NCBI GenBank assembly: GCA_947168855.1
Contig: CAMVNO010000005.1
Location: forward strand, 152,439 to 216,438
Direction of reading: 5' to 3'
Length of the DNA: 64,000 nt
Source: an uncultured Clostridia bacterium
Lineage (GTDB): Bacteria > Bacillota > Clostridia > Christensenellales > CAG-138
Position numbers and translations under genes: made by a program. A model generated the notes under the pieces. That model was not told where the DNA came from. It was given only the letters and a program-made list of their open reading frames with translations, and did no database searches. This document shows positions 13,854 through 58,880 of the stretch, in pieces. Numbering within the stretch: the stretch's first letter is position 1; every line of letters starts with the position of its first letter.

Positions 13854-13884
13854 GGGGCTGTTTAAAAACGCTTTGAACAGCCCC
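13854..13884 (+). terminator. Terminator-like hairpin after queT-PAP2; first module of hairpin array 1L
   Basis: GGGGCTGTT (13854-13862) / AACAGCCCC (13876-13884). Confidence 0.7.
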
Positions 13885-13996
13885 AATGCATTCTCGCTTC
13901 GCTCCGTGAATTGTCCAAAGGACATGAATTGTGCCTTGCGGCACATGAATTGACGCCGAACGGCGTCATGCAGGAAGATTTTCCGTACGGAAAATC
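13854..13996 (+). repeat. ATGAATTG-hairpin array, element 1L (plus orientation)
   Basis: (A)TGAATTG spacers at 13907, 13924, 13945 followed by hairpins GTCC-AAA-GGAC, GTGCC-TTGC-GGCAC, GACGCC-GAAC-GGCGTC; ends in palindrome GATTTTCCGTACGGAAAATC (13977-13996). Confidence 0.9.
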
Positions 13997-14129
13997 AACA
14001 TTCATGTGACCTTTGGTCACAATTCATGCCGAAGGCAATTCATGGCGCAGCCAATTCATGCGGCAACGCCGCAATTCATCGGGGATGTTAAGAACTGCCG
14101 ATCAGAGTTTCTTAACATCCCCGTTTTTT
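13977..14129 (-). repeat. ATGAATTG-hairpin array, element 1R (minus orientation; shares the central palindrome with 1L)
   Basis: CAATTCAT spacers at 14020, 14036, 14052, 14072 with hairpins GTGACC-TTT-GGTCAC, TGCC-GAA-GGCA, TGGC-GCA-GCCA, GCGGC-AAC-GCCGC. Confidence 0.92.
14080..14129. terminator. Strong hairpin with U-tract on + strand and A-tract (U-tract on - strand) before it; first module of element 1R
   Basis: CGGGGATGTTAAGAA (14080-14094) / TTCTTAACATCCCCG (14109-14123) followed by TTTTTT. Confidence 0.85.
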
Positions 14130-33023: not shown

Positions 33024-33102
33024 ATGTGTACAAGCTGCCCCTCTGGGGCGATGGTACAATCAATTCCTCGTGACCCGGAAAATGTCTTTTCCCGTACCGT
33101 CC

Positions 33103-33278
33103 AAATCGGCAGGTTTCCTGGCTCGCGGCCTGAGACGCCTTCGCCTTCCCGATTGCTCAGTGGCTGCTGTTCGCATGATGGCGTCAATCCGCATACAGTG
33201 ACGAGATCGCACAGGCGTTTCACCTGTTTCCCTTTTACCCGCTGCGGCGAGGCAGCGGCACCGATTGCTGATTCAGTT
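33103..33278 (-). ncRNA. Cobalamin (AdoCbl) riboswitch
   Basis: minus strand: AAAAGGGAAACAGGTGAAACGCCTGTGCGATCTCGTCACTGTATGCGG...CCACTGAGCAATCGGGAAGGCG...GAGCCAGGAAACCTGCCGAT (B12-box-like core). Confidence 0.93.
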
Positions 33279-33287
33279 TTCTGTATT

Positions 33288-54375: not shown

Positions 54376-56244
54376 ATGTGCGGAATCGTTGGGTATACCG
54401 GCTCGAAACCGGCTGCGCCGATCCTGTTGGAAGGGCTCAAGAAGCTCGAATACCGCGGCTATGACTCCGCGGGACTTGCCGTGCGCAGCGGCGACGCGCT
54501 TGCCGAGGTCGTGAAGGCGACCGGGAAGCTCAAGAACCTGATCGAGATGACCGACGAGGGGCGGACGATGCCCGGCTTCTGCGGCATCGGGCACACGCGC
54601 TGGGCGACGCACGGCGAACCGAGCCGCGCAAACGCGCATCCGCACGTCTCCGGCAACGCAACGGGCTCCGGCTCCGGTCCGGTCGAATCGGATGTGGTCG
54701 GCGTGCACAACGGTATCATCGAAAACTACGAGGAGCTCAAGCAGAAGCTTCTGAACAACGGCTATCGCTTTTACAGCGGCACGGACACCGAGGTCGTGAT
54801 CAAGCTGGTCGACTACTATTACAAGAAATACAAGATCGGTCCGATCGACGCGATCAACCGCATGATGGTCCGCGTGCGCGGCAGCTACGCCCTTGCGCTG
54901 ATGTTCAGGGACTACCCCGGCGAGCTCTACTGCGCGCGCAAGGACAGCCCGCTGATCATCGGCGTTGCCGACGGCGAGAGCTTCCTTGCCTCCGACGTCC
55001 CCGCGATCCTCAAGCACACGCGCGACGTCTACTACATCGACAATCTGCAGTCCGCGCGCCTTCTGCCGGGCGAAGCGCATTTCTTCGATCTGAACGGCGA
55101 CGAGATCACGCTGCCGCTTTCCCGCATCACATGGGACGCGGAAGCCGCGGAAAAAGGCGGTTACGAGCATTTCATGATCAAGGAGATCCACGAGCAGCCC
55201 AAAGCCGTCCGCGACACGCTGAACAGCATCATCCGGGACGGCAGGATCGACTTTACGGCGGCGGGACTCGACCGGGATTTCTTTGCGAAGATCGACAGCG
55301 TCCACATCGTCGCCTGCGGCTCGGCGTGGCATGTCGGCATGCTCGCGCAGTACGTGATCGAGGATCTTGCCGAGATTCCGGTGCGCGTGGAGCTTGCGTC
55401 GGAGTTCCGCTACCGGAAGCTGCTGCTGTCCGGGCATTCTTTGGTGATCGTGGTGTCGCAGTCCGGCGAAACGGCGGATTCCCTTGCGGCGCTGCGCGCG
55501 GCGAAGGCGCAGGGCGTGCCGACGCTCGCGATCGTGAACGTCGTCGGCTCGACGATCGCGCGGGAAGCGGATCATGTGCTGTATACGCTTGCCGGTCCCG
55601 AGATCGCCGTCGCCACGACCAAGGCGTACAGCGCGCAGCTTGCGGTCATGTATACGCTCGCGATCGCGTTGGCGGACGTGCGCGGAAAACTGGACGAGAC
55701 GCGCCGCGCGGCGTACATCAAGGACCTTTCCGCGCTGCCGGACAAGATGACGCGCGCTTTGGAGGACAAGGAGCGCATCCAATGGTTTGCCAGTAAGCAC
55801 GCCAACGCACGGGACATTTTCTTCATCGGACGCGGGCTTGACTACGCGATCTGCCTCGAGGGCAGTCTCAAGATGAAGGAGATCTCCTACATCCACAGCG
55901 AGGCGTACGCCGCGGGCGAGCTGAAGCACGGCACGATCAGCCTGGTCGAAAACGGCACGCTGATCATCGGCGTGCTGACGCAGCAGGACCGCATCGAAAA
56001 GACCGTCAGCAATATGGCGGAGTGCAAGGCGCGCGGCGCGTACCTGATGGGCCTGACCGGCTACGGCAACTACAACGTCGAGGAAGCCGCGAACTTCACC
56101 GTCTACGTGCCGAACGCCGACCCGCATTTCATCGGCAGTATCGCGATCATTCCGCTGCAGCTGCTCGCCTACTACACCAGCGTTGCAAAGGGGCTCGACG
56201 TCGACAAGCCGCGCAACCTCGCAAAAAGCGTCACGGTCGAATAA
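54376..56244 (+). CDS. glmS: Glutamine-fructose-6-phosphate aminotransferase
   Basis: MCGIVGYTGSKPA, two SIS domains, C-terminal AKSVTVE. Confidence 0.97.
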   Translation: MCGIVGYTGSKPAAPILLEGLKKLEYRGYDSAGLAVRSGDALAEVVKATGKLKNLIEMTDEGRTMPGFCGIGHTRWATHGEPSRANAHPHVSGNATGSGSGPVESDVVGVHNGIIENYEELKQKLLNNGYRFYSGTDTEVVIKLVDYYYKKYKIGPIDAINRMMVRVRGSYALALMFRDYPGELYCARKDSPLIIGVADGESFLASDVPAILKHTRDVYYIDNLQSARLLPGEAHFFDLNGDEITLPLSRITWDAEAAEKGGYEHFMIKEIHEQPKAVRDTLNSIIRDGRIDFTAAGLDRDFFAKIDSVHIVACGSAWHVGMLAQYVIEDLAEIPVRVELASEFRYRKLLLSGHSLVIVVSQSGETADSLAALRAAKAQGVPTLAIVNVVGSTIAREADHVLYTLAGPEIAVATTKAYSAQLAVMYTLAIALADVRGKLDETRRAAYIKDLSALPDKMTRALEDKERIQWFASKHANARDIFFIGRGLDYAICLEGSLKMKEISYIHSEAYAAGELKHGTISLVENGTLIIGVLTQQDRIEKTVSNMAECKARGAYLMGLTGYGNYNVEEAANFTVYVPNADPHFIGSIAIIPLQLLAYYTSVAKGLDVDKPRNLAKSVTVE

Positions 56245-56260
56245 CCGAAGGAAACGAAAA

Positions 56261-56291
56261 AGGGGATGTTAAGCATTTCTTAACATCCCCT
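56261..56291 (+). terminator. Terminator-like hairpin after glmS; first module of hairpin array 2
   Basis: AGGGGATGTTAAG-CATTT-CTTAACATCCCCT perfect 13-bp stem; no U-tract follows it directly. Confidence 0.7.
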
Positions 56292-56398
56292 ATGAATTGC
56301 AGCACGGCTGCATGAATTGGCTGCGCCATGAATTGCCTTCGGCATGAATTGACAATGGAATTGTCATTATGGATGGTTTTCCGTTCGGAAAACCATCC
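56261..56398 (+). repeat. ATGAATTG-hairpin array, element 2
   Basis: ATGAATTG at 56292, 56312, 56328, 56344 with hairpins GCAGC-ACG-GCTGC, TGGC-TGC-GCCA, TGCC-TTC-GGCA, GACAAT-GGA-ATTGTC; ends GGATGGTTTTCC-GTTC-GGAAAACCATCC (56371-56398). Confidence 0.93.
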
Positions 56399-56515: not shown

Positions 56516-58552
56516 TTATAGCTTTTTCTGTATCGTCAGGACGTTTTGTCCGAACTTGTATGCATAGTCCATGCTGTCCATGGTCTTCTTCACCAGAAAG
56601 ATGCCAAGCCCCCCGATCGGTCTGTCCTCTGCAGAAAGATGCACGTCCGGGTCTTTCTTTTCCAGCGGGTTATAGGGCATCCCCTTGTCCAGGAAGGTCA
56701 GGGTCGCCGTCCCCGACGCCTGTTCGTATCCGAACCGCACGGTGACGGGACCGGTCCCCGGCGCATAGGCGTACTGTGCGATGTTCGCCATGATCTCGTC
56801 GATCGCCACGCCGATCTGCATCTTTGCCTTCGGCGGACAGTCGACGGCGTCCAGCTCCGCCTCAACGAAATCGGTCACCGCAGGGATGTTCCCGACCGCG
56901 GCTTCCACGGTCAGCTCCTTCACGGGCGCCGCCGCCTTTGGACCCTTATATTCAAGACAGAGCATGGTGAGATCGTCAAACTGCTCCGCCTCCTGCACAA
57001 AGTCTTCCACCGCCCGGCGTACGCTGCGCAGGATCTCCTCCGGCGCTTCGTCCTTGGCGTCGTTCAGCGCGGCGACCATCCGCTCGGAACCGAAGAGCTC
57101 GTTGTTCGCGTTGCTCGCTTCGGGCACGCCGTCCGTGTAGACGAAGATCTTTGCCCCCGGCGTCAGTTGGATCTCATATTCCCGATACCGAACGCCGCTC
57201 ATGCCGCCGATCACAAGCCCGTGCTTATCCTTCAGCAGGGCAAAGTCGCCGTCGGACGTCTTGACCACCGGGTACTCGTGCCCCGCGTTTGCCGCCGTGA
57301 GCTTGCCGGTGGAGATCTCCAGGATCCCCAGCCAGACGGTGACGAACATCTGCTCCTGATTGTTGGAGCAGATCGCCTCGTTGGTCTTGGTCAGGGTCGC
57401 CGCCGGACCGTTCCCCAGCATCGCGCAGCTCTGCAGGATGATCTTGGAAGCCATCATGAACAGCGCCGCCGGCACGCCCTTGCCGGACACGTCCGCAATG
57501 ACCAGACCCAGATGATCCTCGTCTATGAGGAAGAAATCAAAGAAGTCGCCGCCCACTTCCTTGGCGGGATCCATGGAAGCGTAGAGCGCGAACTCCGGTC
57601 GGTCCGGGAAAGGCGGGAACAGATGCGGGATGAACGCCGCCTGAATGCGGGTGGCGAGAGACAGCTCCGTGCTGATGCGCTCCCGCTCGGCGGTGATTTG
57701 CGTGATATCCGAGATGTAGGTCTCGATCTGCTCCTCCATCGTGTCGATGGACTTTGCCAGCTGCCCGATCTCGTCCTTGTTGCGGATGACCTCCTGCAGC
57801 TTCTGCGCCGACGCCGTATTCTCGTGGGAGAACCGGGCAGCCTCCTCCGTGATCAGATTGACGGGATGCAGCAGCACCCGATGCAGGTAGAAGCTCTGTC
57901 CCAGGATCACAGCCAGCACCAGTATCGCGACAGCCAGCGCAATCTTTCCGAGAAAGGTGCTGCGTACGCCGGCGAGGATGTCCATCTGCCGCTGCACGCA
58001 GAGGATCCCCTTCACGCTTCCGTCGGACCCCTTAAGCCCGATCATGACGGTGATGTGAGAATCGGTCTCGATGTTGCCCTTGTCCCGGATCACCAGCTCC
58101 CGGTCCGCTTCCAGCTCGTAGAGCGCGCGGTATTTTTCCCGGTACTCGTCGTTGGTGGTATCCCGCACGAAACCGAAATCGTACTTGGTATAGGGACTGT
58201 TGTGGTCGATCGTGGAAAAGAGAAAGGTGATATGCCGATAATCCGACCGGTCAGGCACGATCACATAGATAAAGGTTGACCCGGAGGTGTTGCACAGATG
58301 ATCCAGCCGATCCCATACCTCCGTGTATGCGGGGGTAACGCCGCCGCTTTGAGCGTATTCGTCTATTTGATCGGCGTCTACGAGCTCGGCAGCCGTCTGC
58401 GCCGTCAAAAAAGCGCCTTCCGCGTACTGATTCAGCAGCGCGTCGGTAAAGGTCCGATAACCGATGATGCCGACGACCACGGAAAACAGCACCAGCAGCA
58501 GTACGATGCCGGATATGCTTTTGACGGTGATGTGTTGACGCAGCCACTTCAT
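56516..58552 (-). CDS. Membrane sensor - HAMP-like - SpoIIE-type PP2C phosphatase - GHKL ATPase fusion
   Basis: N-term TM/extracytoplasmic domain; AKEVGGDFFDFFLIDEDHLGLVIADVSGKGVPAALFM (SpoIIE/RsbU); GHKL: AIDEIMANIAQYAY...GGLGIFLVKKTMDSM. Confidence 0.93.
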   Translation of the reverse strand: MKWLRQHITVKSISGIVLLLVLFSVVVGIIGYRTFTDALLNQYAEGAFLTAQTAAELVDADQIDEYAQSGGVTPAYTEVWDRLDHLCNTSGSTFIYVIVPDRSDYRHITFLFSTIDHNSPYTKYDFGFVRDTTNDEYREKYRALYELEADRELVIRDKGNIETDSHITVMIGLKGSDGSVKGILCVQRQMDILAGVRSTFLGKIALAVAILVLAVILGQSFYLHRVLLHPVNLITEEAARFSHENTASAQKLQEVIRNKDEIGQLAKSIDTMEEQIETYISDITQITAERERISTELSLATRIQAAFIPHLFPPFPDRPEFALYASMDPAKEVGGDFFDFFLIDEDHLGLVIADVSGKGVPAALFMMASKIILQSCAMLGNGPAATLTKTNEAICSNNQEQMFVTVWLGILEISTGKLTAANAGHEYPVVKTSDGDFALLKDKHGLVIGGMSGVRYREYEIQLTPGAKIFVYTDGVPEASNANNELFGSERMVAALNDAKDEAPEEILRSVRRAVEDFVQEAEQFDDLTMLCLEYKGPKAAAPVKELTVEAAVGNIPAVTDFVEAELDAVDCPPKAKMQIGVAIDEIMANIAQYAYAPGTGPVTVRFGYEQASGTATLTFLDKGMPYNPLEKKDPDVHLSAEDRPIGGLGIFLVKKTMDSMDYAYKFGQNVLTIQKKL

Positions 58553-58583
58553 GGAATTCTCTTTTTCCTTTCCCTCGCACCGG

Positions 58584-58880
58584 TCATTCAACGGTCAGGA
58601 TGTCCGCAAAACCGGTGACCTCGAAGATCTCCAGAATCATTTCATTCGCATGGATCACCTTCATGCTTCCCTGCCGGTTCATGGTCTTTTGCGCGGACAG
58701 CAGCACACGAAGCCCTGCGGAGGAGATGTAATCGAGCTTCTCAAAATCAAAAGTCAGCTCCTCCACGCCCGCAAGCGCGTCGTTCAGCGCCGCCTCCAGC
58801 TCCGGCGCGGTCACGGTGTCCAAACGGCCCGCAAGCGCGAGAACCAACGCTTTGCCGTCTTTCTTTTGTTCGATGTTCAT
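58584..58880 (-). CDS. STAS-domain anti-sigma factor antagonist (close paralogue of 39245-39541)
   Basis: LAGRLDTVTAPELEAALNDALAGVEELTFDFEKLDYISSAGLRVLLSAQKTMNRQGSMKV. Confidence 0.92.
   Translation of the reverse strand: MNIEQKKDGKALVLALAGRLDTVTAPELEAALNDALAGVEELTFDFEKLDYISSAGLRVLLSAQKTMNRQGSMKVIHANEMILEIFEVTGFADILTVE

Follow-up and report, generated by a model that had tools for sequence, protein, structure and literature searches.

The window analysed here, a 64,000-nucleotide stretch of the draft genome of an uncultured Clostridia bacterium, carries two arrays of short hairpins strung on a common linker, ATGAATTG. Array 2 (56262-56398) lies in the intergenic region between glmS, encoding glutamine--fructose-6-phosphate transaminase (622 aa; 54376-56244, + strand; TIGR01135, 741 bits against a cut-off of 418), and a convergent gene with SpoIIE phosphatase and HATPase_c_2 domains (56516-58591, - strand; PF07228, 173.6 bits; PF13581, 76.3 bits). 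An A-tract (56257-56261, + strand) forms its left junction, and the array proper begins at GGGG (56262), 18 bp 3' of the glmS stop codon (56244). It opens with a perfect-stemmed terminal hairpin, GGGGATGTTAAG-CATTT-CTTAACATCCCC (56262-56290, unstranded), followed on the + strand by four units, each made of ATGAATTG and a hairpin: TGCAGC-ACG-GCTGCA (56292-56311), TGGC-TGC-GCCA (56312-56327; a cGCAg loop on the opposite strand), TGCC-TTC-GGCA (56328-56343; a cGAAg loop on the opposite strand) and TGACAAT-GGA-ATTGTCA (56344-56366). An outer hairpin, GGATGGTTTTCC-GTTC-GGAAAACCATCC, and then TTTG complete the array (56371-56398, unstranded). The architecture that an earlier note had described behind glmS was present in all its sequences. 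Array 2 (56261-56398) folds into six perfect, separate hairpins, with a minimum free energy of -59.3 kcal/mol as RNA (shuffled sequence -35.2±3.7 kcal/mol, z -6.6) and of -40.5 as DNA (shuffled -16.7±2.9, z -8.4), and none of the shuffles reached the native stability in either form.

Array 1 (13854-14122, unstranded) is a full element of 269 bp, with a left terminal hairpin GGGGCTGTTTAAAA..GAACAGCCCC (13854-13884), a central palindrome GATTTTCCGTACGGAAAATC (13977-13996) and a right terminal hairpin GGGGATGTTAAGAA..TTCTTAACATCCCC (14081-14122) with GTTTTTT behind it, all three unstranded. The linker occurs 10 times in the window as against 1.9 expected, a number reached in 0 of 100 shuffles. 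Its starts in array 2 (56292, 56312, 56328 and 56344) and, read on its own strand, in array 1 (14072, 14052, 14036 and 14020) share the spacing of 20, 16 and 16 bp, and both arrays carry identical TGGC-TGC-GCCA and TGCC-TTC-GGCA units at matching positions, as the earlier note had claimed. When array 1 was searched against the whole genome by BLASTN, array 2 was matched with E = 1e-27 at 81% identity over 127 bp. The proposal that array 2 repeats the element of array 1 held in so far as both arrays belong to one family at gene 3' ends; array 2 is, however, a half of 137 bp, corresponding in the alignment to the right-hand part of full elements. Its terminal hairpin corresponds to the right-end hairpin, and the former central palindrome, with a fully matching left arm, is now its outer hairpin. 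Its nearest relative in the alignment is not array 1 but a copy at L048:7549-7843. Array 2 is best read as a half-element at the glmS terminator.

Genome-wide counts were obtained by searching the 2.42-Mb draft genome, and the sequence itself was read in stretches around the sites. Sites bearing ATGAATTG sort into two classes. Class I elements are 245-280 bp long and keep a fixed order, namely the left hairpin, ATGAATTCTCGCTTCGCTCC, units, a central TTTTCC..GGAAAA palindrome, inverted units and the right hairpin, so arranged that about ten stem-loops follow one another in a full element, whose terminal inverted repeats are imperfect (GRGGRTGTTAAGAAA; GAGGGTGTTAAGAAAC vs GGGGATGTTAAGAAA); A-rich flanks typically precede them. 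Class II sites are plain unit arrays without terminal hairpins. The units measure 16-23 bp, and each consists of ATGAATTG or a one-base variant and a hairpin. The genomic copies, which the earlier note had left to be counted, amounted to 107 unit-pair matches (0 with a reversed-pattern control) and 26 copies of class I bearing the left core. Array 1 and seven further copies, which stand in unrelated contexts, form a set of eight with 97% identity or more along about 276 bp; about 20 others are more remotely related to array 1, mostly with 71-84% identity.

Of 23 genomes of the genus, 14 carry the unit pattern in the form of one unit pair or more; among 38 other genomes of the order, 2 gave only single chance-level matches. 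The related genomes are mostly metagenome-assembled genomes of uncultured Clostridia from the ruminant gut. In one of them, G021, a class I subfamily of its own has expanded, in unchanged order. The full element had no match among phage and plasmid records. Arrays resembling class II, built on ATGAATTG but with different stems, were present in viral contigs of 40-61% GC, phages of other hosts, in one case adjoining terminase, portal and capsid genes, and the class I left core was not found in viral contigs. The IMG/VR contigs carrying such arrays (L317, L311, L305, L308, L313, L316, L310 and L312) vary in GC content; the AT-rich ones seem to have more AT-rich stems, with the linker constant. 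Growth of arrays by duplication of unit blocks is also indicated by a three-unit block (CGCTGTGCG, TCCTATGGA, GGCTTTGCC) present in three tandem copies at G012:C61:6095-6276. At L138:1065-1214 and 2475-2854 (G003:C9), GGGGCGCCGAGGACGTCGCCCCCTAC repeats lie within ATGAATTG-unit hairpins, as if inserted in the loops. A second array family with a CGATATG linker and like variable hairpins occurs in the genus and is abundant in G006 (C10:19-515; 71 unit pairs), in G009 (C129:18787-18863; 28 unit pairs) and in the genome under study (e.g. L056 around 2350-2450; 25 unit pairs). At L058:3911-4007 there is a further dispersed repeat, about 95 bp long and matched many times in sister genomes.

We aligned 18 class I copies with array 2 to examine the stems. 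In the given structure 95.8% of the alignment cells were paired. Both sides had changed in 19 pairs (9.7±1.9 after shuffling) and 64 cells (18.2±3.7), values reached in 0 of 500 shuffles, and slid-structure controls gave only 0-4 pairs and 0-6 cells, though neither test is to be read as a probability, since kinship among the copies inflates the first and the second favours the given structure. Taken together, the two tests argue strongly for covarying unit stems. Of 287 unit contexts, 250 have a variable part that forms a perfect inverted repeat, and in 240 of these 250 the loop is closed by a C-G pair. The loops are strand-biased: among distinct class II units read on the CAATTCAT strand, 37 have GN(N)A and 2 have TN(N)C. 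Loops of the type cGNAg in DNA and GNRA in RNA are unusually stable.

The sequence shared by near-identical copies ends precisely at the left GGGG and the right CCCC, and most junctions fall within A- or T-rich runs. A direct repeat at the junctions, as expected of a target-site duplication, was seen in 0 of 24 copies. With genes called by a simple codon-based method, the 25 class I copies that could be classified were between convergent genes in 15 cases and tandem genes in 10; none was in a divergent intergenic region, which answers the question of position relative to gene 3' ends raised in the earlier note. The gene pairs of the window itself are 7 convergent, 35 tandem and 7 divergent. 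Elements have the make-up of an intrinsic terminator, namely a GC-rich hairpin and a following T-tract at the 3' end of a gene, and T content per 8 nt reading outward is on average 5.5 and 5.0 in the outer flanks as against 3.4 on the inner sides. A transcript would therefore run past the first hairpin and through the array before stopping at the far one.

Orthologous regions in sister species were located through the flanking DNA and then read. At 15 sites, 14 of them clean and one complex, the element-free relative has an ordinary terminator of A-tract, hairpin and T-tract in the position of the element, which takes the place of the hairpin between retained A/T-rich flanks. In the genome under study these sites are L058 (2), L048 (2), L033, L035, L036a, L039, L043, L047, L054 and L062, and the remainder are G021 sites compared in L126, L127 and L128; the L045 and L046 sites were left out of the count because they are filled with other repeats in G021. 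For array 1, the two flanks were not adjacent in any of the five relatives tested. The cleanest site is L058:2403-2675, where CAGAACATAAAA|CCCGGTGCAAAGGCATCGGG|ATCAACGATTC in G012 corresponds to CAGAACATAAAA|element|ATCAACGATTC. The wider context in G012, ..TGATCCGCGTCAGAACATAAAA|CCCGGTGCAAAGGCATCGGG|ATCAACGATTCAGTTTT.., is identical on both sides in the element-bearing genome (22 bases on the left, more than 75 on the right), and the flanks of this young copy remain identical right up to the former hairpin, of which no remnant is left. G004 and G010 also carry CCCGG..CCGGG hairpins at this site, so the hairpin state is ancestral. At both L058 sites one side is without a T-tract and the junctions are still hairpin-exact. 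Further sites read GAAAAAAAA|CGGTCTGTTGAAAGGATTTCAACAGACCG|AATAACTCAGG in G010 against GAAAAACC|element|AATCACTCAGG, CAAAAA|CGGGACCCGATCGGGTCCCG|TTTTG in G021 against CAAA|element|TTTTTT, and ATACGAAAA|GCCCCGGTT..CCGGGGC|CTTTTT in G010 against ATACGAAAA|element|TTTTG. At C6:81.9 kb, this genome has a single element-like hairpin (GAGGGTGT..ACACCC), G021 a full element and three others a native hairpin; at the L054 site, G011 has the same single element-like hairpin only. Thus, single hairpins as well as hairpin chains both appear to replace native ones.

Since the element is found exactly where a terminator hairpin used to be at the readable empty sites, it seems to spread by hairpin swap. We consider both arrays to be members of a dispersed family of mobile repeats in a genus of uncultured rumen Clostridia, and the family to spread by replacing terminator stem-loops and then to act as a bidirectional terminator, with a probability of about 0.75. 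The family is best read as REP/MITE-like (after repetitive extragenic palindromes and miniature inverted-repeat transposable elements), spreading hairpin-for-hairpin by an enzymology that we infer as follows. The exchange would take place on single-stranded DNA, such as that of the lagging strand, with the hairpin bases as the points at which a structure-specific enzyme or a template switch may act; the feature recognised would be the ATGAATTG linker together with a variable stem bearing a cGN(N)Ag loop. Having taken the exact place of the stem-loop, the element would, judging from its position and sequence, serve as 3' untranslated region and bidirectional terminator of the local gene or genes.

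Several points weigh against this reading. No mobilising enzyme was found for the family and no transposase was linked to it; the one Y1/REP transposase detected in the genome has another repeat, GGGCATTGCCCGTCC, on its flanks. The L036a site is complex: in the relatives G010 and G012 two terminators stand there, and a right-hand terminator of native appearance persists beside the element. For array 2, glmS is syntenic in the relatives and the downstream gene is not, for which reason the site can be compared on its left side only. The covariation could in part stem from templated correction of quasi-palindromes rather than from selection. As for an autonomous copy, none was seen; at L063:2583-4660 some 1.84 kb with lipoprotein-like open reading frames and other repeats separates the two parts of a class I element, which was rejected as a candidate as it has no transposase inside.

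Tagged palindromes at gene 3' ends, together with a REP_Tyr_transpos-like protein in this genome and Y1-like proteins encoded in several sister species, would suit a member of the REP/BIME (bacterial interspersed mosaic element) group with an unusual ATGAATTG tag, moved by a REP-associated tyrosine transposase (RAYT, TnpA_REP). REP and BIME sequences are likewise short, tagged, intergenic palindromes of high copy number at gene 3' ends, often in inverted pairs; their tags are GTAG and CGTC, and some are perfect with loops of 3-4 nt (PMC3733652; TnpA_REP, PMC8266576). The present element, by contrast, has ATGAATT as its tag in place of an unpaired GTAG or CGTC end, freely varying stems and a composite fixed order with terminator ends, and it swaps terminator hairpins exactly. 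A search of the genus with PF01797, followed by a look at the matched loci that were retrieved, gave no ATGAATTG array flanks, within the limits that draft genomes set to this test, and a RAYT/IS200 partner was rejected on that ground; we regard this origin as unlikely. The transposase-like gene of this genome (L125:2614-3159, i.e. G000:C4:245113-245658; NF047646) has GCGGACGATCGATGATCGTCC and GGGACGGGCATTGCCCGTCC palindromes on both sides and looks like a complete REPtron of another repeat family. In L121, L122 and L124 (G003, G011 and G009), RAYT-like genes lie directly 3' of the terminator hairpin of one conserved gene (CCCCGCCGC..GCGGCGGGG), with GTAG-type palindromes behind them. A conventional MITE, inserted by a DDE-type transposase beside terminators because 3' intergenic space is tolerant, with later loss of the redundant native terminator, would account for the imperfect terminal inverted repeats and for the many copies at gene 3' ends. 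MITEs are also short, non-coding and dispersed, with near-identical copies (PMC10969869), but the element replaces target DNA instead of adding to it and lacks a target-site duplication in the 24 copies, and the young L058 copy shows neither remnant nor decay of its flanks; this explanation is more doubtful still. Selection on RNA structure, with the arrays retained as regulatory or stabilising 3' RNAs, would be in keeping with the strong covariation and the very stable folds, but it is improbable, as the arrays are patchy between species, their sites are not conserved and an Rfam gathering scan gave no match at them. The same scan ruled out an Rfam-known RNA as their identity; its sole match was a cobalamin riboswitch elsewhere in the window (RF00174, 93 bits, 33091-33280, - strand).

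Recombination or microhomology template switching between terminators, in which A- and T-tracts serve as short homologies and the interior is converted to the sequence of a donor locus, competes seriously with the proposed mechanism only, not with the replacement itself. It would explain hairpin-exact boundaries without a transposase, the location of most junctions in A- or T-rich runs and the replacement of native hairpins by single element-like ones; against it, the two L058 junctions are among the cleanest in spite of the T-tract missing on one side. We consider it possible, short of an even chance. Other known systems share some traits with the family. Streptococcal BOX is a modular composite with repeatable internal modules and SPRITE a terminator-like repeat enriched at 3' ends, both of another architecture, on which alone they were compared (PMC3049150). 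For one streptococcal repeat family no comparable empty site was found and the mode of insertion was left open (PMC3049150), in contrast to the present element, whose empty sites are terminator hairpins. Group IIC introns choose targets by a stem-loop such as an intrinsic terminator (PMC7923331), whereas the element is non-coding, replaces the stem-loop and, at 137-280 bp, is too short for a reverse transcriptase, with no match in Rfam at the arrays. TIGR (tandem interspaced guide RNA) arrays also consist of tandem short units, one type having variable palindromic stem-loops (PMC12045711), but the element has no guide spacers of 8-12 nt and its variable part is itself palindromic. The literature searched, with most subscription journals outside its reach, held no description of the ATGAATTG element family.

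Repeats at bacterial gene ends are usually viewed as inserting into tolerant space; here the terminator itself is taken out and replaced, almost to the exact base. The element would thereby supply the function that it destroys, which would make its insertion nearly neutral and explain its copy number. Tentatively, the family may represent a previously undescribed form of DNA mobility, a structure-guided and sequence-independent exchange of one stem-loop for another, or for a chain bounded by stem-loops, with terminators as targets. Such an exchange, if true, would also explain why the unit stems differ beside fixed ATGAATTG linkers. Exchange of DNA hairpins on the basis of their structure could be tested in this family.
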